From a marine gamma proteobacterium HTCC2148 (GTDB lineage Bacteria; Pseudomonadota; Gammaproteobacteria; Pseudomonadales; Halieaceae): a DNA stretch of 64,000 bases. The DNA lies in NCBI GenBank assembly GCA_000156295.1, contig DS999225.1:68852-132851 (forward strand), given 5' to 3'. The notes beneath the pieces were generated by a model. The model made no database searches and was not told the DNA's origin. It worked only from the letters and a program-made list of their open reading frames with translations. Shown piece after piece: positions 29,688 through 38,699 of the stretch; positions within the stretch are counted from its first letter, which is position 1, and each line of letters begins with the position of its first letter. The position numbers were made by a program, and so were the translations under genes.

Positions 29688-31742
29688 TCATTTCGGGTAG
29701 TACCAGATGGGAGACGTCCAGGCTCTTTCCTGAATCTTCCAGGGAATATCCGGGTTATTGCAACTTGCAGGTCGCTCTTCAGGCGGCAGACGGTTGCAAT
29801 CCCATTGGCTCCAGCGACAGCTGGGATTCTCCAATGTCCGACTATAGTAAGCCGCAGCCGTATCCGGATCGAACCCGGGGTCACGCCAGGTAGCGCAAAG
29901 CTGATTGAATCCGGAGCCACGAGTGACGCAGCTATCGGAGTCTACACTCGCTCCGTTTTTTGGATCACCGGCTACATTGTAAATTGCCTGGTGGGTTTTC
30001 CCGTCGGCGTCCACCCAAGATTTAATGATCTGGATACGCTGTAGCAGGTTGGCACTATCTCGACCGTCCCTGTTTGCAGTAACCAGAAATACTGGCCCTG
30101 CTGTTTGCGGTTCACCAGTCAGGGTCGAGCCCATAGGTACGCCTTGCTGGTAGGCCTTTTGGAGCAGCGCCGGATCATAACAATCCAGCTCATCCATACC
30201 CCAGCCGGCAAAAAATCTGGGCGTAATTTTGGGACCACTGGTGCCGAAAGTCTCTCTGTTTCGCATTGAATCAAACAGAGCTTCTCGAGAGTTTTGCTGT
30301 GCATAAATGCCTGCAAGGCCTCCGGGATTATAACGCACCGGTGAGCCGGCACCGATGTCGCCAGGCACTTCGGTATGACCCTCCAGGCGACTGAGTACAT
30401 TGCGGTCTATGCCGTGAGACCCTTGGTAGAATTCCTCGCTGTCCGCTGCTGCTATGCCGTTGTGAGTGTCGGTGGCGGCGACAATCCCCAGCTTGAAAGG
30501 GTTGACTCCCAGTGCGGCTCTCTCCTTAAGTCCGGCAGCCAGTGCGTAGCGGACAAAATTGTAACGGGAGGTGCATCCGCGCAGCATCATGCCGCCACTG
30601 CCGATGGTTTCATCACAATCTTCAATGGACTCTGCCGGAGAGCGCAGCTTTTCGAAGTCACAGAACTCGTCTGCCGCACCCATAACGCTGGCGATACCAT
30701 TGCGACATTCCGAGTCGCCCTTGGTTTGCAGTATTTCCGCCAGTGGTTCCAGTCTTGCACGCAGTTGGGCATGCTCTACGCGAGCCTTTGTAGGCAGGTC
30801 CCTGTTGCTGTATGGATACCACATACGACCGCTGCTCCAGTTGCTATTGTGAGGGATAGCGAGCACATCACAGTCAGTATCGCCCTCAATACAAGTGCGG
30901 TTTAGCCAGCCCCATAGTTGTTCTGGCTCCGGTGCATCCTTGGCGCTGATGACCGCCTGGGGTACCCGGGAGGACCGAAAAATAACATTGCGATGCAGGT
31001 TAGAGGAGTCTTCGGCGAGGGTGTATTCGTAGGCGTGCAGTGTGCTGAAGTTGCAACGGCTGCTGTGATCTTGCCACTGCTCAGTGCTGCGCTGATTTTC
31101 CAGCCACACCTGAGCGGCCTGCTGTAGACAAAGGGTGCCGTCTTTACCGCAAACTTTTTGCGAACGGTCTTTACCAAAAATGGCCAGCGAGGCCAGTCGC
31201 AAGATCGCCTGCATATCGTCGCCTGCCGGCAACTGCAGGTCTCCTCGATACAGGCGACAAACCAATGCTCCGTAAGCCTGGCTAGCGGGGGCGTAACAGA
31301 GCTGGACTTCGCCAAGGGATTCGGCGTGATCGGTCACTGCCATAAAATCCAGCGGAGCATTAATGCTAATTAAGGGCGCATCGAAGCCCTCGGGGTCTGT
31401 GCGCAATCGTAGGGGCAGAGTTTCACCGCGGGCAAAACGATAGGCATCGTCAACGGTGGTCATGGTCCCAAACGCGGTAGCGTCGTAGGAGGCGGCGGTG
31501 TGGACGTGCAGGGCGCCAAAGAACGCGCGTTTTTGCGGGTACTGCTGCAAGCACTCTTTGTCGATGTTTACATCTTTATCTGCTGCCACCACGGGCACGG
31601 ACTGCCAGTAGGCACTGTTCGCGCCTGCTGACTGCACCCTGGCGAATTCTTGGCGCAGCCAAAGTCCAGCGACTACCACGGTGAACAGGAGGAGCGAAAG
31701 CGCCCAGAGCAGATATTTGAATACGGATTTTATGTTTGGCAT
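29688..31742 (-). CDS. DUF3604 (PHP-like) exported protein
   Basis: A 684-residue protein with an N-terminal membrane helix or uncleaved signal (about residues 7-30). It belongs to DUF3604: GALHVHTAASYDA near residue 75, MAVTDHAE near 135 and IVAATDTHNG around 425 form a PHP-like metal-binding set of His/Asp residues. The C-terminus is Trp- and Cys-rich. Function in this family is not established; a periplasmic hydrolase is plausible from the metal motifs. It lies between gppA and alr on the same strand, 45 bp from alr, without clear functional connection. Confidence 0.85.
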   Translation of the reverse strand: MPNIKSVFKYLLWALSLLLFTVVVAGLWLRQEFARVQSAGANSAYWQSVPVVAADKDVNIDKECLQQYPQKRAFFGALHVHTAASYDATAFGTMTTVDDAYRFARGETLPLRLRTDPEGFDAPLISINAPLDFMAVTDHAESLGEVQLCYAPASQAYGALVCRLYRGDLQLPAGDDMQAILRLASLAIFGKDRSQKVCGKDGTLCLQQAAQVWLENQRSTEQWQDHSSRCNFSTLHAYEYTLAEDSSNLHRNVIFRSSRVPQAVISAKDAPEPEQLWGWLNRTCIEGDTDCDVLAIPHNSNWSSGRMWYPYSNRDLPTKARVEHAQLRARLEPLAEILQTKGDSECRNGIASVMGAADEFCDFEKLRSPAESIEDCDETIGSGGMMLRGCTSRYNFVRYALAAGLKERAALGVNPFKLGIVAATDTHNGIAAADSEEFYQGSHGIDRNVLSRLEGHTEVPGDIGAGSPVRYNPGGLAGIYAQQNSREALFDSMRNRETFGTSGPKITPRFFAGWGMDELDCYDPALLQKAYQQGVPMGSTLTGEPQTAGPVFLVTANRDGRDSANLLQRIQIIKSWVDADGKTHQAIYNVAGDPKNGASVDSDSCVTRGSGFNQLCATWRDPGFDPDTAAAYYSRTLENPSCRWSQWDCNRLPPEERPASCNNPDIPWKIQERAWTSPIWYYPK

Positions 31743-31787: not shown

Positions 31788-32870
31788 TTAGTCAGTCACG
31801 ACTCTGGGCGTGCGCGCCGGCATTCGAGTGGTGAGTTCGTAGCCTATTGTGCCGGCATGGGCCGCAACTTCGCTCACGGGCAATTCTTCCCCCCACAGTA
31901 TGACCTGGTCACCAAGCTTCACGTCGTCCAGGTCGGTGATATCCACAGTGATCATGTCCATTGAGACCCTGCCCGCCAGGGGCGCGCGTTGGCCGTTGAT
32001 CAGCACTGGCGTGCCGTTGGCTGCGAGTCTGGGATAGCCATCACCATAGCCTATGGACACTGTGGCAATTCGCGAGGGTCTTTGGGCGGTCCAGTTTGCG
32101 GCGTAACCAACGGACTCACCGGAGGCAACGTTGCGTATCGAAATCACTGCGGAACAGAGTGTCATCACCGGGTGAAGCGTGTCTGTGTTGGGGTGGGTCG
32201 CAGTGAAAGGGGAGTTGCCATAGAGCATGTAGCCCGGACGAATCCAGTCATAATGCGAGTTCGGCCAGCCGAGTAAGCCCGACGAATTGGCCGCACTGCG
32301 TGGACCGGGAAGATCAGCGGTGATGCTCTCGAACAGTGCCAGTTGTTCTGTAGTTTGGGGCTTGTCCAGTTCATCGGCGCTGGCAAAGTGGGTGCAGGTG
32401 ACTAACTCCCCAGTACGATTTTCACAGGAGCTCAAGCGCTGATGGAACTCGGCCGCTTCCTCGGGCTGCACGCCCAGTCGATGCATGCCGGTATCTATCT
32501 TGAGCCAGCAGGTAACAGGGGCAGGAAGTCGTGCCTGTTCAAGCCAGTAAAGGTGTTGGCGGTTATCGACCATCACCCAAAAATTTTGCTGCGAGGCGAT
32601 AATCAGCTCTTGCGCCTCGAACACACCTTGCAGCAACAGGATGGGTGTCTCTATGCCTCCGTCACGTAATTCAATAGCTTCTTCAATGCAGGCGACCGCC
32701 AGTGCATCGGCCATCGGAGCAAACACACGCGCAACGTTAAGTGCACCGTGGCCATAGCCATTGGCTTTGACCACGCACATTACCTTGCATTCGGGCGCTA
32801 GTTGCCGGGCATGCGCTAGGTTATGGCGCAGGGCCGCGAGATCGAGCCTGGCCTGGTTGGCACGTGCCAT
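31788..32870 (-). CDS. alr: Alanine racemase
   Basis: A 360-residue PLP enzyme interconverting L- and D-alanine. The PLP lysine is K35 in VVKANGYGHG, the second base Tyr lies in SIGYGDGYPR, and SMDMITVDI is the conserved beta-barrel segment. The size is normal. The start ATG overlaps the stop of the D-amino-acid transaminase gene (TGATG), so the two are translated together. It is the last gene of the D-amino-acid operon, which suggests a catabolic or balancing role (DadX-like) in addition to cell-wall supply. Confidence 0.95.
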   Translation of the reverse strand: MARANQARLDLAALRHNLAHARQLAPECKVMCVVKANGYGHGALNVARVFAPMADALAVACIEEAIELRDGGIETPILLLQGVFEAQELIIASQQNFWVMVDNRQHLYWLEQARLPAPVTCWLKIDTGMHRLGVQPEEAAEFHQRLSSCENRTGELVTCTHFASADELDKPQTTEQLALFESITADLPGPRSAANSSGLLGWPNSHYDWIRPGYMLYGNSPFTATHPNTDTLHPVMTLCSAVISIRNVASGESVGYAANWTAQRPSRIATVSIGYGDGYPRLAANGTPVLINGQRAPLAGRVSMDMITVDITDLDDVKLGDQVILWGEELPVSEVAAHAGTIGYELTTRMPARTPRVVTD

Positions 32871-33727
32871 CAGAAGTCGAACTTGTGGCCGGTGTACAGC
32901 GTTTGTGCCGCCAGCCAGACATCTCCAACGCCGCCATCGCCCACTGACTTACCGTTAATTTCTATGACCGGTGCAATTTCCTTGGATGAACTGGTAATCC
33001 AGACTTCGTCGGCGTCATCCACCTCTTTCATCGTAACGACTCGTTCCTGCACCGGAATGCTGCCGTCCTTGCGCAAAATTTCCAGTAGCATCAGACGAGT
33101 GATTCCCGGTAGTTTCTGGTGGTCCAGCAAAGGGGTAGACACGATGCCGTTCTTTACGATGAAGACGTTACAGGCAGCAGCCTCGGTGAGTTCACCATGC
33201 TCGTTGTACAAAATGGTTTCCGAGTGTCCCTTTGCGTGACCGTCCTGATAGTGCATGACATTGCCCAGCAAGGCGGTAGATTTAATATTGCAGCGTTTCC
33301 ATCGCAGATCTTCGGCGGTAGACACGGTGTAGGGATTAGCTGCGCTTTTTTCGGGCAGGGGCGCCGGTGGGATTTCAAAGGCAAAGGCGTAAACGGTCGG
33401 TGCAATGTTATCCGGATAAGCGTGATGCCGTTTACTGTCCGCGCCGCGACTTACGTGAAAATAAATGCCCAGGTTTCCGCCACCGTTGCGTTTTATCAGC
33501 TGTTCGGAAATATTGTGCCAGGCGGCATGATCAACGACCAGTTTGATTTCAATCGCATCAAGACCCTCCTGCATACGCTGCAGGTGAGGGGTGAACCCCA
33601 CTAATTTTCCGTCATAGGAAGGCACCACTTCGTAAATGCCGTCACCGAAAAGAAAACCTCGGTCCATGGGTGAGATCTGAGCCTCTTCCATTGGCATGTA
33701 CTCGCCGTTTAAATACACAATGCTCAT
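32870..33727 (-). CDS. D-amino-acid (D-alanine) transaminase
   Basis: A 285-residue fold-type IV PLP enzyme. The opening ISPMDRGFLFGDGIYEVVPSY is the family start, the PLP lysine is in CNIKSTALLGNV, and TEAAACNVFIVKNG and LPGITR are the later class IV motifs. It would catalyse D-Ala + 2-oxoglutarate = pyruvate + D-Glu. A good ribosome site (AGGA, 6 bases before ATG) precedes it, with a hairpin upstream. Coupled to alr by TGATG, it links D-Ala with D-Glu, the substrate of the presumed cyclase encoded upstream. Confidence 0.92.
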   Translation of the reverse strand: MSIVYLNGEYMPMEEAQISPMDRGFLFGDGIYEVVPSYDGKLVGFTPHLQRMQEGLDAIEIKLVVDHAAWHNISEQLIKRNGGGNLGIYFHVSRGADSKRHHAYPDNIAPTVYAFAFEIPPAPLPEKSAANPYTVSTAEDLRWKRCNIKSTALLGNVMHYQDGHAKGHSETILYNEHGELTEAAACNVFIVKNGIVSTPLLDHQKLPGITRLMLLEILRKDGSIPVQERVVTMKEVDDADEVWITSSSKEIAPVIEINGKSVGDGGVGDVWLAAQTLYTGHKFDF

Positions 33728-33746
33728 AGTTTTTCCTGTCTGAATG

Positions 33747-33761
33747 TCCCACAGGGTGGGA
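33747..33761 (-). promoter_or_regulatory. Hairpin in the leader between DUF4392 gene and D-amino-acid transaminase
   Basis: Perfect 6-bp stem TCCCAC-AGG-GTGGGA. On the minus strand it follows the DUF4392 stop by 12 bp and precedes the transaminase ATG by 19 bp, with a TATTAT/TATAAG sequence just before it. It could be a weak internal terminator, an mRNA processing or stability element, or part of an internal promoter. Confidence 0.4.
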
Positions 33762-33773
33762 ACTTATAATACG

Positions 33774-34610
33774 TTACTGGAATCCAGTGAGACTCCGGAG
33801 TTCATCGATGACGTTTTGCCCTTCCTCGGCTTGCAGGCCATCTTCGGTCAGGGTGTTCTCCCGGGTGACTCCGTCAACACTACCGCGCGCCGAAAGGTAG
33901 TTGAGAATATCCAGTGGCGATATTTCGCCAAGCATATCTCGGCCGCGCCAATACCCCAGAAAGGCGATAAGGCCGTAGGCACCCCAGTTGGAGACATCTG
34001 CCACCAATAATTCATCGCACTTAGTTGCGGCTGCATTAATGTCCAGGGTAGCTATCGCGTCCCGAATATTGCCCATACCGATTTCGTTACCGCCATCACC
34101 AATGGCCATGGTCGGGCACCGTGCGTTGGCCAGATAGGGGTCAAAAAAAGCACTGCGGGGCGTTATGTCTTCGCCACGCATATTGTAATAACAGCCATCA
34201 GCGCTGAGTCCGGGGCGTTCAATTGAAATGATGGCCTGAGGTTGCAGTTGCTCCAGTTTTCCCTGTGCTTCCTGCTGGGCGGTAACAAGGTTTTTCGCGT
34301 TTAACTCCAGTACTCGGTAGTCATCAATAAGACATTTTGAGAGCGGCGCTCCGCAGGCTAGCCAGGGTTCTGCTCCCAGTTGCTCCAGGGCGTCGTATAA
34401 GGCGATGGCACCCACGGGTCCATCTGTTTCAAAGGTCTCCATAACGGGGAAGCCAGTGCCTATGATGACTTTGCCCGTGACCTCGCTCAATATTCGTGCA
34501 GCCCGCATGTAGTAGCCGGGCGCCAGTGCATCCCTGGCGACCTTCATGTTGCGCAGGTTGCGCGCCACCAGAGTCGCTTCAATGCTTATGCTGAGTTCTA
34601 ATTCAGTCAA
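33774..34610 (-). CDS. D-glutamate cyclase C-terminal-domain protein (DUF4392)
   Basis: A 278-residue cytoplasmic protein. The start is taken as TTG 34610 because it overlaps the pxpC stop as TTGA and the next residues (TELELSISIEATLVARN) begin the conserved domain; no ATG is available. Visible conserved segments are IIGTGFPVMETFETDGPVGA, SIERPG, GGNEIGMGN and ADVSNWGAYGLIA. DUF4392 is the C-terminal half of the mitochondrial D-glutamate cyclase (DGLUCY), whose N-terminal half is DUF1445, encoded separately at the head of this operon. Conversion of D-Glu to 5-oxo-D-proline is the inferred role, likely together with the DUF1445 protein. Confidence 0.82.
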   Translation of the reverse strand: MTELELSISIEATLVARNLRNMKVARDALAPGYYMRAARILSEVTGKVIIGTGFPVMETFETDGPVGAIALYDALEQLGAEPWLACGAPLSKCLIDDYRVLELNAKNLVTAQQEAQGKLEQLQPQAIISIERPGLSADGCYYNMRGEDITPRSAFFDPYLANARCPTMAIGDGGNEIGMGNIRDAIATLDINAAATKCDELLVADVSNWGAYGLIAFLGYWRGRDMLGEISPLDILNYLSARGSVDGVTRENTLTEDGLQAEEGQNVIDELRSLTGFQ

Positions 34611-35545
34611 GCGGTGCGCTCCATCAGCGGCTGGCGGCGGGAAAAACTGGCGGCGAGGTGCAAGGCATTGTGAGCTCCGTGGGGGCTGACAGGGGCAAAG
34701 TGTACCGTGCCACCGGGACGCAGCTGCGCCAGGCGTCCACAGTCCAGCGACAGAGCTGAGCCAATCTTGGGATAACCGCCAATGGTTTGTCGGTCGTTGA
34801 GCAAAACGATGGGTTGTCCGTCCGCAGGAATCTGAATTGCCCCAAAGCATATGCCCTCGGAAAGTATGCCCTGTATATCACAGTCAATGGCTGGGCCTTC
34901 AAGTCGGTATCCCATTCGATCACAGCGGTCAGAGACGGTATAGGTGTGACTGAAAAAGCGGCGCTGTTCATAGCGGTTAAAGTGTTGCTGTTGGTAACCG
35001 GGAATGACTCTGACGGTAATGAGGTTCTGGTAGCGTGGTTGGCTCGAGGCCGGCAAATACAGGTGTTTGCACTCGGTGACCTGTGCGCAGGGAAGCAAGT
35101 CGCCCGCTTGTAGCTTGTCGCCGTTGAGACCGCCGACCTTTTCTCGCATCACGGTGGCAGTGCTGCCAAAAGTGGGTTCCACCTGAAAGCCGCCGGCTAC
35201 GCCCAGGTAAGAACGACAGCCCTGCTCGGCAAATTCCACCGCGATACTGTCACCGGCCTTTATTGCCAGTACTTCCCAGCGAGCTTGCTCGATGTTGTTA
35301 ATGCGCAAATTCATGTTCGCACCGGTGAGGCAAATGTAGGTGTCCACTGTGGCTTCCAATTGCAGACCGCCAAAGCTGATCTCCAGTGCGGTTGCACCTT
35401 CCGGGTTCTGTAGCAGGCGATTGCAGTATCCAAAAGCCTGCGGGTCCAGTGGGCCACCATTGGTCAAACCAATGCGATGTTGACCCATGCGGCCACCATC
35501 CTGCAGCAGACAGAGAATACCGGGCTGGGTCACTGTCAAGCTCAC
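34607..35545 (-). CDS. pxpC: 5-oxoprolinase subunit C (biotin-dependent-carboxyltransferase-like, KipA family)
   Basis: A 312-residue protein of the allophanate hydrolase subunit 2 fold (GILCLLQDGGRMGQHRIGLTNGGPLD at the start; YRLEGPAIDCDIQGILSEGI and LLNDRQTIGGYPKIG later). PxpA, PxpB and PxpC form the ATP-dependent bacterial 5-oxoprolinase. The GTG start overlaps the pxpB stop (GTGA), and its own stop overlaps the DUF4392 start (TTGA), so all are translationally coupled. Confidence 0.92.
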   Translation of the reverse strand: MSLTVTQPGILCLLQDGGRMGQHRIGLTNGGPLDPQAFGYCNRLLQNPEGATALEISFGGLQLEATVDTYICLTGANMNLRINNIEQARWEVLAIKAGDSIAVEFAEQGCRSYLGVAGGFQVEPTFGSTATVMREKVGGLNGDKLQAGDLLPCAQVTECKHLYLPASSQPRYQNLITVRVIPGYQQQHFNRYEQRRFFSHTYTVSDRCDRMGYRLEGPAIDCDIQGILSEGICFGAIQIPADGQPIVLLNDRQTIGGYPKIGSALSLDCGRLAQLRPGGTVHFAPVSPHGAHNALHLAASFSRRQPLMERTA

Positions 35546-36219
35546 AATTCACCACCCAGACTCAAGAAACGATCTCGATCAATGGGTTCAAAGCGCACTC
35601 GGTCACCCACAGAAACCGGCATGGTAGGAGTGGCTTGGGGGTCGAACATCCTTAACGGGCAACGACCGATCAGGTTCCAGCCTCCGGGAGAGACCGCTGG
35701 GTAAACTGCTGTTTGCCTGTCGGCAATGGCGACTGCGCCACGGGGCACTTTTTGTCTTGGTGTCGCCAGACGTGGCGCAGCAATGCGCTCGTCAACCTGG
35801 CCAAGGTAAGCAAATCCGGGCGCGAAGCCGATGGCATAAACCCGGTATTCAGCGTTACTGTGCAAGGCTATGACGTCGTCTACGCTCAGGGCGGCGCGCT
35901 CGGCCAGTGCTTCCAGATCTTCCCCTGCTTCAGGGTGGTAATAAACCGGCAGAACCACGGTGTTGCCTTCCGCCGCTTCTCCGGAGCCCAGGTCGTCGAG
36001 ACATTGGTGAACTCGATGGGCCACCGACAGATGATCGGCGGTTAGGGCATTATAGACAATGAGCAAAGACGCGTAGGATGGCACCAGATCAATCAAGTCA
36101 TCGCCTAGCGCTAACTCTACCGCCAGAGCAGCAGCTTGCACTCGCGCAGATACCTCAGGGCTCGTTTCCTTGCCCAGATATAGCATCATGGCGTTCTCGC
36201 CGGCAGAGTGCAGTTCCAC
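35542..36219 (-). CDS. pxpB: 5-oxoprolinase subunit B (KipI family)
   Basis: A 225-residue protein of the allophanate hydrolase subunit 1 fold. Motifs are PSYASLLIVYN, YRVYAIGFAPGFAYLG, PRLATPRQKVPRGAVAIADRQ and SPGGWNLIGRCP. GTG start, 6 bp after the pxpA stop. The KipI homologue in Bacillus inhibits a sporulation kinase, but the pxpABC context makes the oxoprolinase role far more likely. Confidence 0.92.
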   Translation of the reverse strand: MELHSAGENAMMLYLGKETSPEVSARVQAAALAVELALGDDLIDLVPSYASLLIVYNALTADHLSVAHRVHQCLDDLGSGEAAEGNTVVLPVYYHPEAGEDLEALAERAALSVDDVIALHSNAEYRVYAIGFAPGFAYLGQVDERIAAPRLATPRQKVPRGAVAIADRQTAVYPAVSPGGWNLIGRCPLRMFDPQATPTMPVSVGDRVRFEPIDRDRFLSLGGEL

Positions 36220-36225
36220 GGCAGC

Positions 36226-36957
36226 TTAGCTTCCGTTTACCAGGGACCGGATTTCGCGAATAGCCTGGACGCCCTCCGGGTTGTCGCCGTGAACACATAG
36301 CGTGTCAGCTTCCAGTGATAAGGTATGTCCACTCACAGTGGTCAGCGAACCATGCTCTATCAGTTGTGCAACCTGGGCGAGCATCTTGTCGCGGTCATGC
36401 ACTGCCCCGGGCTTGCGGCGGGATAACAATTTCCCATCGTCGTCATAGCATCGGTCAGCAAATACCTCAAACATGAGGTCCAGACCCATTTGACCGGCCT
36501 CAGCCCTGTGGCTGGTTGCGTCAGGCGTAGCTTGCAGCATGAGGGGCAGGGGGCGCTGATAGTCAGCGATTGCTTGCATGATCGCCAGACGTACCTCTGA
36601 TTTTGCCATCATGTCGTTGTAAAGAGCGCCGTGGGGCTTGATGTAGTCCAGGGATAAACCAGCGCTTTTCGCCATGCCATCCAGTGCTGATATCTGGTAG
36701 TGCAAGGAGGCGATAATTTCGTCGCTACTCAATGCCATGGATCGTCGTCCAAAGCCTACCAGGTCGGGGTAGGCGGGATGCGCACCGACACTAACGTCAT
36801 GCTGAGCTGCCAGTTGCAGGGTGTTGCGGATAGTCAGCGGGTCGCCCCCATGGAAGCCGCAGGCAATGTTGGCCTGGTCGATATGAGGCATAACCTCAGC
36901 GTCCAGCCCCATCGTCCAGCTGCCATAGCTCTCTCCCAAATCGCAATTCAGTCGCAT
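36226..36957 (-). CDS. pxpA: 5-oxoprolinase subunit A (LamB/YcsF family)
   Basis: A 243-residue protein with the LamB/YcsF opening LNCDLGESYGSW, then HIDQANIACGFHGGDP, AHPAYPDLVGFGRR and VKPHGALYN-like YIKPHGALYND, all conserved. AGGTGAGAG before the ATG is a good ribosome site. Together with pxpB and pxpC it makes the ATP-dependent enzyme that opens 5-oxoproline to glutamate. Confidence 0.93.
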   Translation of the reverse strand: MRLNCDLGESYGSWTMGLDAEVMPHIDQANIACGFHGGDPLTIRNTLQLAAQHDVSVGAHPAYPDLVGFGRRSMALSSDEIIASLHYQISALDGMAKSAGLSLDYIKPHGALYNDMMAKSEVRLAIMQAIADYQRPLPLMLQATPDATSHRAEAGQMGLDLMFEVFADRCYDDDGKLLSRRKPGAVHDRDKMLAQVAQLIEHGSLTTVSGHTLSLEADTLCVHGDNPEGVQAIREIRSLVNGS

Positions 36958-36972
36958 ATTTCTCTCACCTGT

Positions 36973-37758
36973 TTACATCACTGCCAGCTGGCTGTTTCGA
37001 AGGTCCGTCACCAGCATATGCCCGGGACTATGGGTGATCGCGAAGGGAGGTCTGGCCTTCTCCAACGCCACCTGTGGAGTAACACCACAGGCCCAGAACA
37101 CGGGCAGTTCATCCTCGGCAATATGGACAGCATCGCCGTAATCCGGAAGCTCCAGATTGTCTATTCCAATTAGTCCAGGGTCACCCATGTGAATAGGCGC
37201 CCCGTGCACCGAGGGAAAGCGCGTACAAATCTGTATAGCCCGTATCGCATCCGCAGCCTTAAAAGGACGCATGCTAACGACCATCTCGCCCGAGAACGGA
37301 CCTGCAGGTGCGCAGCTAATATCGGTGCGATACATGGGTACATTCACGCCCTCGCTGACATTGCGTACATTCAGGCCATCCGCCAACAGAGCCTCTTCAA
37401 AGGAGAATGAACAACCCAGTGCAAAAATGACCAGATCATCTCGCCAGTAGTCAGAAATATCCGGAACTTCTTCGCTAAGTTGACCATCGCGGAAAACGCG
37501 GTAGCTTGGCACATCAGTCCGTATGTCAATATCCCCCAAAAGAGGTAAGCCCACGTCCCCCGGGGCGTTGGATGTCGCTACCAGCGGGCATGGCTTGGGG
37601 TTTGCCTGACAGAAGCGCAAAAAATCGTTGGCCAAGTCGGCGGGCAGGATGGCCAGGTTGCACTGTACGAATCCTGGTGAATAACCAGACGTATTCCCGG
37701 TAAATTCACCCGTGCGAATGGCTTGGCGCAGCGCCGCGGGGGAGATGTCCTGATTCAT
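36973..37758 (-). CDS. D-glutamate cyclase N-terminal-domain protein (DUF1445/YcsI family)
   Basis: A 261-residue protein. ATG 37758 is chosen over ATG 37788 because AGGA lies 6 bases before it. It belongs to the YcsI/DUF1445 family, often annotated as putative hydro-lyase: [66 protein letters not shown] split over residues 148-173, and [26 protein letters not shown] near the end. DUF1445 is the N-terminal half of mitochondrial D-glutamate cyclase. First gene of the operon with pxpABC, DUF4392, D-amino-acid transaminase and alr; divergent from tesB. Confidence 0.88.
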
Positions 37759-37859: not shown

Positions 37860-38699
37860 ATGCTGCAGCAGTTATTGGACATTCTGACCCTTGAGCCCTC
37901 AGGTGATGATGGCTTCGTGGGTGAGATCATGCACCCCAAGGGTTTCAGGGTATATGGCGGGCAAGTGCTGGCCCAGGCGCTGGAAGCGGCTCAAAGCACG
38001 GTCGACATTGATCGGGCTGTGCACTCGCAGCATGCCTATTTCTTGCGTGAGGGTAAAACAGACCGACCGATCCATTATCAGGTGGAGCGGGCCAGGGACG
38101 GCGGTAGTTTCAATTCTCGCCGGGTAGTTGCATCGCAAGACAACAGAACAATCCTGGTGTCTTCCATGTCTTTTCAGAGGCCTGACGACAGTTTCGACTT
38201 TCAGGAGTCCATACCGGAAGTTCCAGCTCCAGAAGATTTACCGTCAGAGCGCGAGCGCGCCAAGACTGATGGAATTTTTGATGAGGACTTCATGATCACC
38301 ACCGGCGAAGATATTGATGTGCGTATGGTTCACCCGATTCAGTGGGCCAATCCTGAACAGCGTCGGGGACAGTTATTTAACTGGATGAAAACTACCGGGC
38401 CTATGCCGGATGACCCTGCGCTGCACCGCAATATGCTAGCGTATTTCTCCGACACGATGCTGTTGGATGCGGGCCTGATTCAGCATGGTCGATCCTACTG
38501 GGACAGGGGCTTGCAGATCGCCAGCCTTGATCACGCTATCTGGTTTCACGCGGACTGCCGAACCGATGAGTGGCTGCTGCACTCTGCTGACCTGGAACGC
38601 AATAGTGGAGGAAGGACGCTGGTTAGTGGACGGTTTTACAGTCGTGAAGGTGTGCATGTGGCTACTGTCATGCAGCAAGGTTTGATGCGCAAGCGTTGA
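37860..38699 (+). CDS. tesB: Acyl-CoA thioesterase II (TesB)
   Basis: A 279-residue double-hotdog thioesterase. Motifs are GFRVYGGQVLAQALEAAQ and HSQHAYFLREGKTDRPIHYQVERARDGGSFNSRRV (split) in the first half, and LDHAIWFHAD (catalytic Asp) with DEWLLHS in the second half. It hydrolyses acyl-CoA to free acid and CoA. It is followed by an acyl-CoA synthetase gene after 66 bp on the same strand, so an acyl-CoA metabolic unit is likely. Confidence 0.93.
   Translation: MLQQLLDILTLEPSGDDGFVGEIMHPKGFRVYGGQVLAQALEAAQSTVDIDRAVHSQHAYFLREGKTDRPIHYQVERARDGGSFNSRRVVASQDNRTILVSSMSFQRPDDSFDFQESIPEVPAPEDLPSERERAKTDGIFDEDFMITTGEDIDVRMVHPIQWANPEQRRGQLFNWMKTTGPMPDDPALHRNMLAYFSDTMLLDAGLIQHGRSYWDRGLQIASLDHAIWFHADCRTDEWLLHSADLERNSGGRTLVSGRFYSREGVHVATVMQQGLMRKR

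Follow-up and report, generated by a model that had tools for sequence, protein, structure and literature searches.

A cluster of seven intact genes, all on the minus strand at positions 31788–37758 of the 64,000-nucleotide (nt) stretch of contig DS999225.1 from marine gamma proteobacterium HTCC2148 analyzed here (the window), encodes a DUF1445 protein, the 5-oxoprolinase subunits PxpA, PxpB and PxpC, a DUF4392 protein, a D-amino-acid transaminase (DAAT) and an alanine racemase (Alr). On balance this cluster appears to be a D-glutamate (D-Glu) homeostasis module, with a supply arm and a removal arm, in a bacterium without a detected glutamate racemase. D-Glu is a standard component of the bacterial cell wall and the glutamate racemase MurI is usually taken as its source. 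In the supply arm Alr would convert L-Ala to D-Ala, needed also for D-Ala-D-Ala, and DAAT would transfer the amino group of D-Ala to 2-oxoglutarate, yielding D-Glu for MurD. In the removal arm DUF4392, a predicted two-metal enzyme, and/or DUF1445 would convert surplus or recycled D-Glu to 5-oxoproline, which PxpABC would open to glutamate in an ATP-driven step. Where MurI is present it could convert D-Glu back to L-Glu; without it the cell would need another drain. The supply arm is the firmer of the two.

No match to the MurI model TIGR00067 was found in the HTCC2148 genome (99.93% complete; E 1e-3) and, in counts resting on this single model, MurI above cut-off was present in none of 25 genomes of the same family (Halieaceae), three of which gave partial matches of 22.9–26.2 bits. 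Across the 38 genomes compared MurI exceeded the cut-off in nine, and it was detected in ten of 14 controls, eight of these above cut-off. Only one of the 27 genomes with DUF4392 had MurI above cut-off compared with eight of the 11 without DUF4392; the 27 are not independent cases, the family being one clade, and several genomes are metagenome-assembled, so that a missing gene may reflect a gap. MurL, searched for with the protein of genome G145 as query (E 1e-5), was not found in HTCC2148 or in eight further family genomes, and no search was aimed at broad-specificity racemases or at DapF promiscuity in HTCC2148. The HTCC2148 genome contains one match to the Alr C-terminal domain (PF00842), at window positions 31800–32168, which is the Alr of the cluster. 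The single Alr match likewise lies within 4 kb of DUF4392 in 26 of the 27 DUF4392 genomes, and on a separate contig in the other one. Because MurI and MurL were not found and the sole Alr lies in the cluster, the most likely role of Alr and DAAT is biosynthesis, and very probably they supply D-Ala and D-Glu for peptidoglycan rather than being merely catabolic. The single linear catabolic route from L-Ala proposed in an earlier note on this DNA is therefore not upheld in that form.

The MurD of HTCC2148, which scores 399.7 bits and sits among clustered Mur-ligase matches, points the same way. At the glutamate site MurD2-type enzymes have Glu, Arg, Pro and Phe for Escherichia coli Asp182, Lys348, Ala414 and Leu416, respectively; in a compared fragment that left out the Asp182 site, the HTCC2148 protein has Lys and Ala as in E. 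coli and Phe as in MurD2, whereas four MurL-linked MurD proteins have Arg and Pro in place of the Lys and Ala. Alteration of Pro or Phe in MurD2 is reported to leave its choice of glutamate unchanged (PMC8788868). Judged by these residues HTCC2148 probably has a D-Glu-type MurD, which would require free D-Glu, for which DAAT is the known remaining route. MurL was found in 11 of 40 genomes tested, namely all nine MurI-less members of groups f27 and f35 together with the MurI-less genomes G094 and G145. In G145 a 459-amino-acid (aa) protein encoded three genes from DUF4392 matches the MurL model NF041275 with 267 bits, and in G094 the gene overlapping DUF4392 does so with 434.7 bits (locus L155, 8580–10944), both below the curated cut-off of 700, which was set for Xanthomonadales. 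Between DUF4392 and MurL in G145 (locus L156, 8754–13711) lie a MurD-like gene that is a candidate MurD2 and a 415-aa gene belonging to no known Pfam family; a higher-scoring MurD is encoded elsewhere in that genome.

Active-site residues are kept in DAAT and DUF4392. DAAT Lys149 aligns to structure 3DAA at the site of the catalytic lysine, presumably Lys145 of bsDAAT. In the same alignment DAAT Tyr32, Arg100 and His102 match Tyr31, Arg98 and His100 of the bsDAAT carboxylate trap, as described in PMC10003956. In DUF4392 the six acidic residues of the predicted metal site (Glu59, Asp61, Glu129, Asp170, Glu174 and Asp255, numbered from the codon starting at 34604) align with the ligands Glu59, Asp61, Glu115, Asp157, Glu161 and Asp246 of TON_0340 and are invariant in 27 of 27 alignment rows, and the predicted DUF4392 model matches the TON_0340 structure 5GL2 (E 9e-22).

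DUF4392 (PF14336) was present in 27 of the 38 genomes, HTCC2148 included, and in 24 of the 25 from Halieaceae, the remaining one being 88% complete. In the 27 corresponding operon loci DUF4392 was always followed by DAAT and accompanied by PxpA, with Alr present in 26, DUF1445 in 24 and all seven genes together in 23. The single locus without Alr stops at a contig end, and two of the three genomes without DUF1445 at the locus encode it elsewhere (G013, G027), the third (G016) being 66% complete. Among 80 loci from named genomes, the same strand carried DAAT in 73 (at least 50% identity), 55 of these within 300 nt of DUF4392, together with Alr in 48 (40%), DUF1445 in 73 (50%) and all of PxpABC in 75 (35%); the five without full PxpABC start within 1.2 kb of DUF4392. 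The closest named genomes by DUF4392 were Seongchinamella unica (77% identity) and Pseudohalioglobus sediminis (74%), both Halieaceae. The linkage of DUF4392 to DAAT (27/27 and 73/80 loci) is not due to chance, and the cluster is conserved in Halieaceae and found with or without DAAT and Alr in other gammaproteobacterial families. The D-Ala/D-Glu link drawn in the earlier note is supported, and so is its assignment of the seven genes (Table 1), in which the two halves of mammalian D-glutamate cyclase are encoded separately; overall its observation was confirmed and its interpretation partly supported.

Table 1. Genes of the cluster, in order from DUF1445 to Alr, with positions in the window
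Gene product	Position	Strand	Length, start codon and model matches
DUF1445 / PF07286 'D-Glu_cyclase' (NCBIfam: putative hydro-lyase)	36973..37758	-	261 aa, first gene; PF07286 217.5 bits
PxpA, 5-oxoprolinase subunit A	36226..36957	-	243 aa; PF03746 304.2 bits; NF003816 341 bits, cut-off 213
PxpB	35542..36219	-	225 aa, GTG start; PF02682 233.6 bits; TIGR00370 168.3 bits, cut-off 145.55
PxpC	34607..35545	-	312 aa, GTG start, 4-nt overlap with PxpB; PF02626 289.2 bits; TIGR00724 261 bits, cut-off 230.2
DUF4392 / PF14336 'GLUCM-like_C'	33774..34610	-	about 278 aa; TTG start; PF14336 217.2 bits
D-amino-acid transaminase (DAAT, pyridoxal phosphate fold IV)	32870..33727	-	285 aa; PF01063 167.5 bits
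Alanine racemase (Alr)	31788..32870	-	360 aa; PF01168 226.7 bits, PF00842 156 bits; TIGR00492 381.5 bits, cut-off 168

From DUF1445 to Alr the intergenic gaps are 15, 6, -4, -4, 46 and -1 nt, so that three of the six junctions overlap (PxpB/PxpC, PxpC/DUF4392 and DAAT/Alr). The PxpC stop and the DUF4392 start share the sequence TTGA, with the TTG at 34610, and the first nucleotide of Alr is also the last of DAAT. The three Pxp subunits are encoded by adjacent genes; PxpC scores above its domain model and below the PxpC equivalog NF045499 (217.6, cut-off 500). The DUF4392 protein had no NCBIfam match. On the minus strand no terminator-like site was found between the genes, the single one detected lying inside alr, and no sigma-70-like promoter was found upstream of DUF1445. 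The 46-nt gap before DAAT (33728–33773) contains a short inverted repeat, CCCAC-CCT-GTGGG, with no T run. Outside the conserved unit lie a DUF3604 gene downstream (29688–31742), which follows Alr in some relatives only, and a divergent tesB-like gene upstream (37860–38699).

Among carriers of the operon MurI status differs even inside single genera. Of 49 named operon-bearing genomes 14 had MurI above cut-off, and all 35 MurI-less ones contained a class IV aminotransferase match (E 1e-20), in 31 cases at least 56% identical to the DAAT described here. MurI was present in Amphritea atlantica, Oceanospirillum beijerinckii and Leucothrix arctica and absent from A. balenae, O. maris and L. pacifica, all isolates for which completeness figures are lacking. 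When MurI was mapped on a tree of concatenated operon proteins at least eight changes were required, forced by starred branches; this tree was made by a quick method, has some long branches and traces the operon instead of the species. MurI was found in three of 27 tested genomes with DAAT within 300 nt of DUF4392, in ten of 16 with DAAT at 1.1–4.4 kb and in one of six where DAAT was not found in the locus, a hint only, since the spacing groups follow taxonomy. The cluster was also considered, and set aside, as sole D-Glu source in four Leucothrix/Cocleimonas genomes lacking both MurI and this DAAT, a case weakened because two of their four aminotransferases scored as D-amino-acid transaminases (377.8 and 375.2; cut-off 320), the other two (L151, L153) being outside that scan. 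In one Cocleimonas genome the 'MurI' that scored below cut-off is a cysteate racemase-type protein (242, cut-off 190).

DUF1445 and DUF4392 are separate genes lying 2.4 kb apart on either side of PxpABC, and do not form one polypeptide. Among 397 genomes of the phylum DUF1445 occurred in 76 and DUF4392 in 11, with both in nine of the 11 (p 9e-6), and the two DUF4392 genomes without DUF1445 were the two bearing MurL. The idea of the earlier note that the halves form a split cyclase thus holds for their being separate genes but is doubtful for an obligate split enzyme, which was set aside given the separate distribution of the families. Together with the occurrence of DUF1445 beside pxp genes (see below), this pattern fits a DUF1445 enzyme acting on the 5-oxoproline side and a DUF4392 enzyme on the D-amino-acid side, without proving it. 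The DUF1445 model, compared using Foldseek and VIA-align, matched the solved relatives 2PIF and 3DB9, then the methanogen NrpR-like protein MJ0159 (Z 9.4, root-mean-square deviation 4.2, 168 residues aligned) and then PII-like folds; no racemase fold was among the matches listed, an absence that shows little. NrpR senses 2-oxoglutarate, a dicarboxylate resembling glutamate. All 27 alignment rows of DUF1445 share Cys57, Cys116, Cys149 and Cys224, which 2PIF and 3DB9 have too. One suggestion, though unlikely, is that a one-way ATP-driven lactam route replaces the reverse reaction of MurI: DUF4392 would close D-Glu to 5-oxo-D-proline, DUF1445, with these cysteines as a putative two-cysteine racemase, would invert this to 5-oxo-L-proline and PxpABC would open the latter to L-Glu. 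The earlier note was right to ask which isomer PxpABC handles. We know of no sequence mark that distinguishes D- from L-specific PxpABC, having looked no further than the family scans. A D-active PxpABC beside the cyclase would form an ATP-burning futile cycle, as it would reopen the D lactam. This would be avoided by an inversion step, for which DUF1445 is the candidate, or by a PxpABC that repairs the L lactam beside a drain ending in 5-oxo-D-proline.

A different view is that the whole cluster is a scavenging operon for the breakdown of D-Glu, D-Ala and 5-oxoproline that originate in peptidoglycan or sea water, in which DAAT would convert D-Glu and pyruvate to 2-oxoglutarate and D-Ala, Alr would form L-Ala, and PxpABC with DUF1445 would use 5-oxoproline. 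We regard this as rather unlikely for HTCC2148, although relatives lend it weight. In all four loci scanned from Oceanospirillaceae/Cellvibrionaceae (L087, L091, L114, L133) the insert separating DUF4392 from DAAT carries a LysR gene, and MurI-positive genomes carry the operon too (14/49). Pseudoalteromonas CF6-2 and THAF3 have the order GH3, DUF1445, PxpA, DUF4392, aminotransferase, and the GH3 gene directly upstream in these two records, along with DUF4392 near MurL in two genomes, supports the connection with peptidoglycan made in the earlier note. The GH3 copy of G161, a locus where no PxpA match was found, scores 202.7 as a beta-N-acetylhexosaminidase, just below the cut-off of 207. DUF1445 genes without Pxp stand beside uptake genes, which in the five loci scanned were for DctP in three and for branched-chain amino-acid ATP-binding cassette components in one. 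However, the window cluster has no LysR or transporter gene, and with MurI and MurL not found and Alr single in Halieaceae, Alr and probably DAAT must have at least a biosynthetic role as well. Growth of Pseudoalteromonas CF6-2 on D-Glu has reportedly been traced to DgcN/DgcA, which, if so, argues that D-Glu catabolism in this strain runs mainly by a route other than this operon. Because of the LysR loci, the parts may first have formed a regulated scavenging operon, which in Halieaceae would later have become the housekeeping supply, with MurI gone.

It is quite improbable that the cluster merely places two units side by side under co-regulation as nitrogen housekeeping, PxpABC and DUF1445 repairing spontaneous 5-oxo-L-proline and Alr and DAAT making D-amino acids, with DUF4392 in another role such as a Mn-dependent phosphatase step. 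DUF1445 does occur beside pxp genes: in 60 DUF1445 regions, a set comprising part of all DUF1445 matches, all Pxp subunits were found in 17, at least one in 25 and none in 35 (E 1e-5), and in the 51 remaining after removal of nine from DUF4392 genomes and their relatives these counts were 14, 22 and 29. We take the Bacillus subtilis gene ycsI to be a DUF1445 gene. It is described as sharing an operon with pxpABC (PMC10448178), and the solved DUF4392 protein TON_0340 is reported to have phosphatase activity (PMC5132392). Against this view, DUF4392 accompanies D-amino-acid genes in several distinct settings, with DAAT, with MurL/MurD and, on two plasmids, with annotated alanine racemases, and the mammalian protein with both domains is reported to have D-Glu cyclase activity (PMC5339696).

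Several observations weigh against the homeostasis module itself. G025 combines the full operon with MurI. Outside the family MurI was absent from two of three genomes with DUF4392 and two of ten without, which is not significant (p 0.20), and among the 397 phylum genomes the association was weak, 5/11 with DUF4392 and 67/386 without being MurI-less (p 0.03). In this set 339 genomes matched TIGR00067, 285 above cut-off; MurI-less genomes comprised 58 without a match and 14 with weak ones (E above 1e-15), about 40 with strong but sub-cut-off matches were counted as having MurI, and G145 and G171 were scored MurI-less as they were not among the matches listed. Other D-Glu sources must exist, since in seven further MurI-less phylum genomes MurL was not found either. 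In G034, of the same order and 99% complete, MurI, DUF4392 and MurL were not found. PxpB and PxpC are missing from the G027 locus and from the regions retrieved from CF6-2 and THAF3, and in G331 and G303 DUF1445 and DUF4392 occur without adjoining Pxp or DAAT, the searches in all these genomes covering the loci only. Relatives thus differ in Pxp and DAAT content, and the removal arm is not a fixed five-gene set. In the same-genus, MurI-less G003 (locus L032, 8586–9439) the DAAT match is split between two frames, so that the gene may be disrupted or its sequence misread. The best NCBIfam matches of the HTCC2148 DAAT are D-amino-acid transaminase models, both below cut-off (241.5/320 and 220.3/277.45). 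Finally, the phosphatase activity reported for TON_0340 is weak and Mn-dependent, and no assayed bacterial member was met in the literature looked through.

DUF4392 also occurs in other settings. Plasmids of Bradyrhizobium and Paraburkholderia carry a distant DUF4392 gene ahead of an annotated alanine racemase, with RidA nearby; an Agrobacterium plasmid has one flanked by a threonine/serine dehydratase gene and RidA, close to bhc genes; and on a Sinorhizobium plasmid two distant copies flank a gene annotated as selenocysteine synthase (the Agrobacterium and Sinorhizobium loci are L264 and L265). The Agrobacterium and Sinorhizobium genes perhaps serve other D-amino-acid pathways. The family thus reaches beyond D-Glu metabolism in this cluster. 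A second DUF4392, 27% identical, adjoins a major facilitator superfamily transporter gene in the Parahaliea-like G009 (L054, 7373–8380). Possible fusions were seen in G424, where DUF4392 ends a 1412-aa open frame (L162, 5077–9315), and in G311, where two DUF4392 domains lie within one 3586-aa open frame (L251).

The cluster is a new combination of known parts, and no publication about this operon was found by title or abstract in a limited literature search. DUF1445 and DUF4392 occur together in one mammalian protein, the D-glutamate cyclase DGLUCY/GLUCM (9030617O03Rik), which in mouse is reported to convert D-Glu to 5-oxo-D-proline, the knockout accumulating D-Glu in the heart (PMC5339696). 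Here, in contrast, the putative counterparts are encoded by two genes that flank PxpABC and precede DAAT and Alr, and the two families also occur apart. A split GLUCM has already been tabulated for gut bacteria (nSplit 6, nFull 0; PMC11580864). All three subunits are shared with PxpABC of B. subtilis and with Corynebacterium glutamicum pxpTABC; the latter comes with a transporter in place of DAAT and Alr and is described for 5-oxo-L-proline (PMC13274462). In bacteria D-Glu is described as coming either from MurI or from D-amino acid aminotransferases (PMC8788868). Alr and DAAT resemble the latter route, but here they cluster with a putative D-Glu removal arm in a family in which MurI was not found. 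The MurD2-MurL pathway is another MurI-free route of D-Glu to peptidoglycan, differing in that MurL was not found in HTCC2148, whose MurD has the E. coli-type Lys. DgcN/DgcA, described as racemizing D-Glu irreversibly (EC 2.3.1.312, 5.1.1.25; PMC12363236, PMC11747546), are similar in logic, the amino group being acylated before inversion (N-acetyl there, lactam here), but are different enzymes, and inversion here is a proposal only.

If the homeostasis module is correct, it would add a third arrangement, found in a marine family, to those of MurI and MurD2-MurL, and a MurI-directed drug would miss such bacteria. Were the lactam route to operate as well, supply and drain could be set separately, so that MurI could be lost repeatedly, and mammalian DGLUCY would carry, as its DUF1445 domain, a 5-oxoproline racemase or what is left of one. 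The single-domain proteins are suited to deciding the roles of each half of the mammalian D-glutamate cyclase, and the fate of 5-oxo-D-proline.

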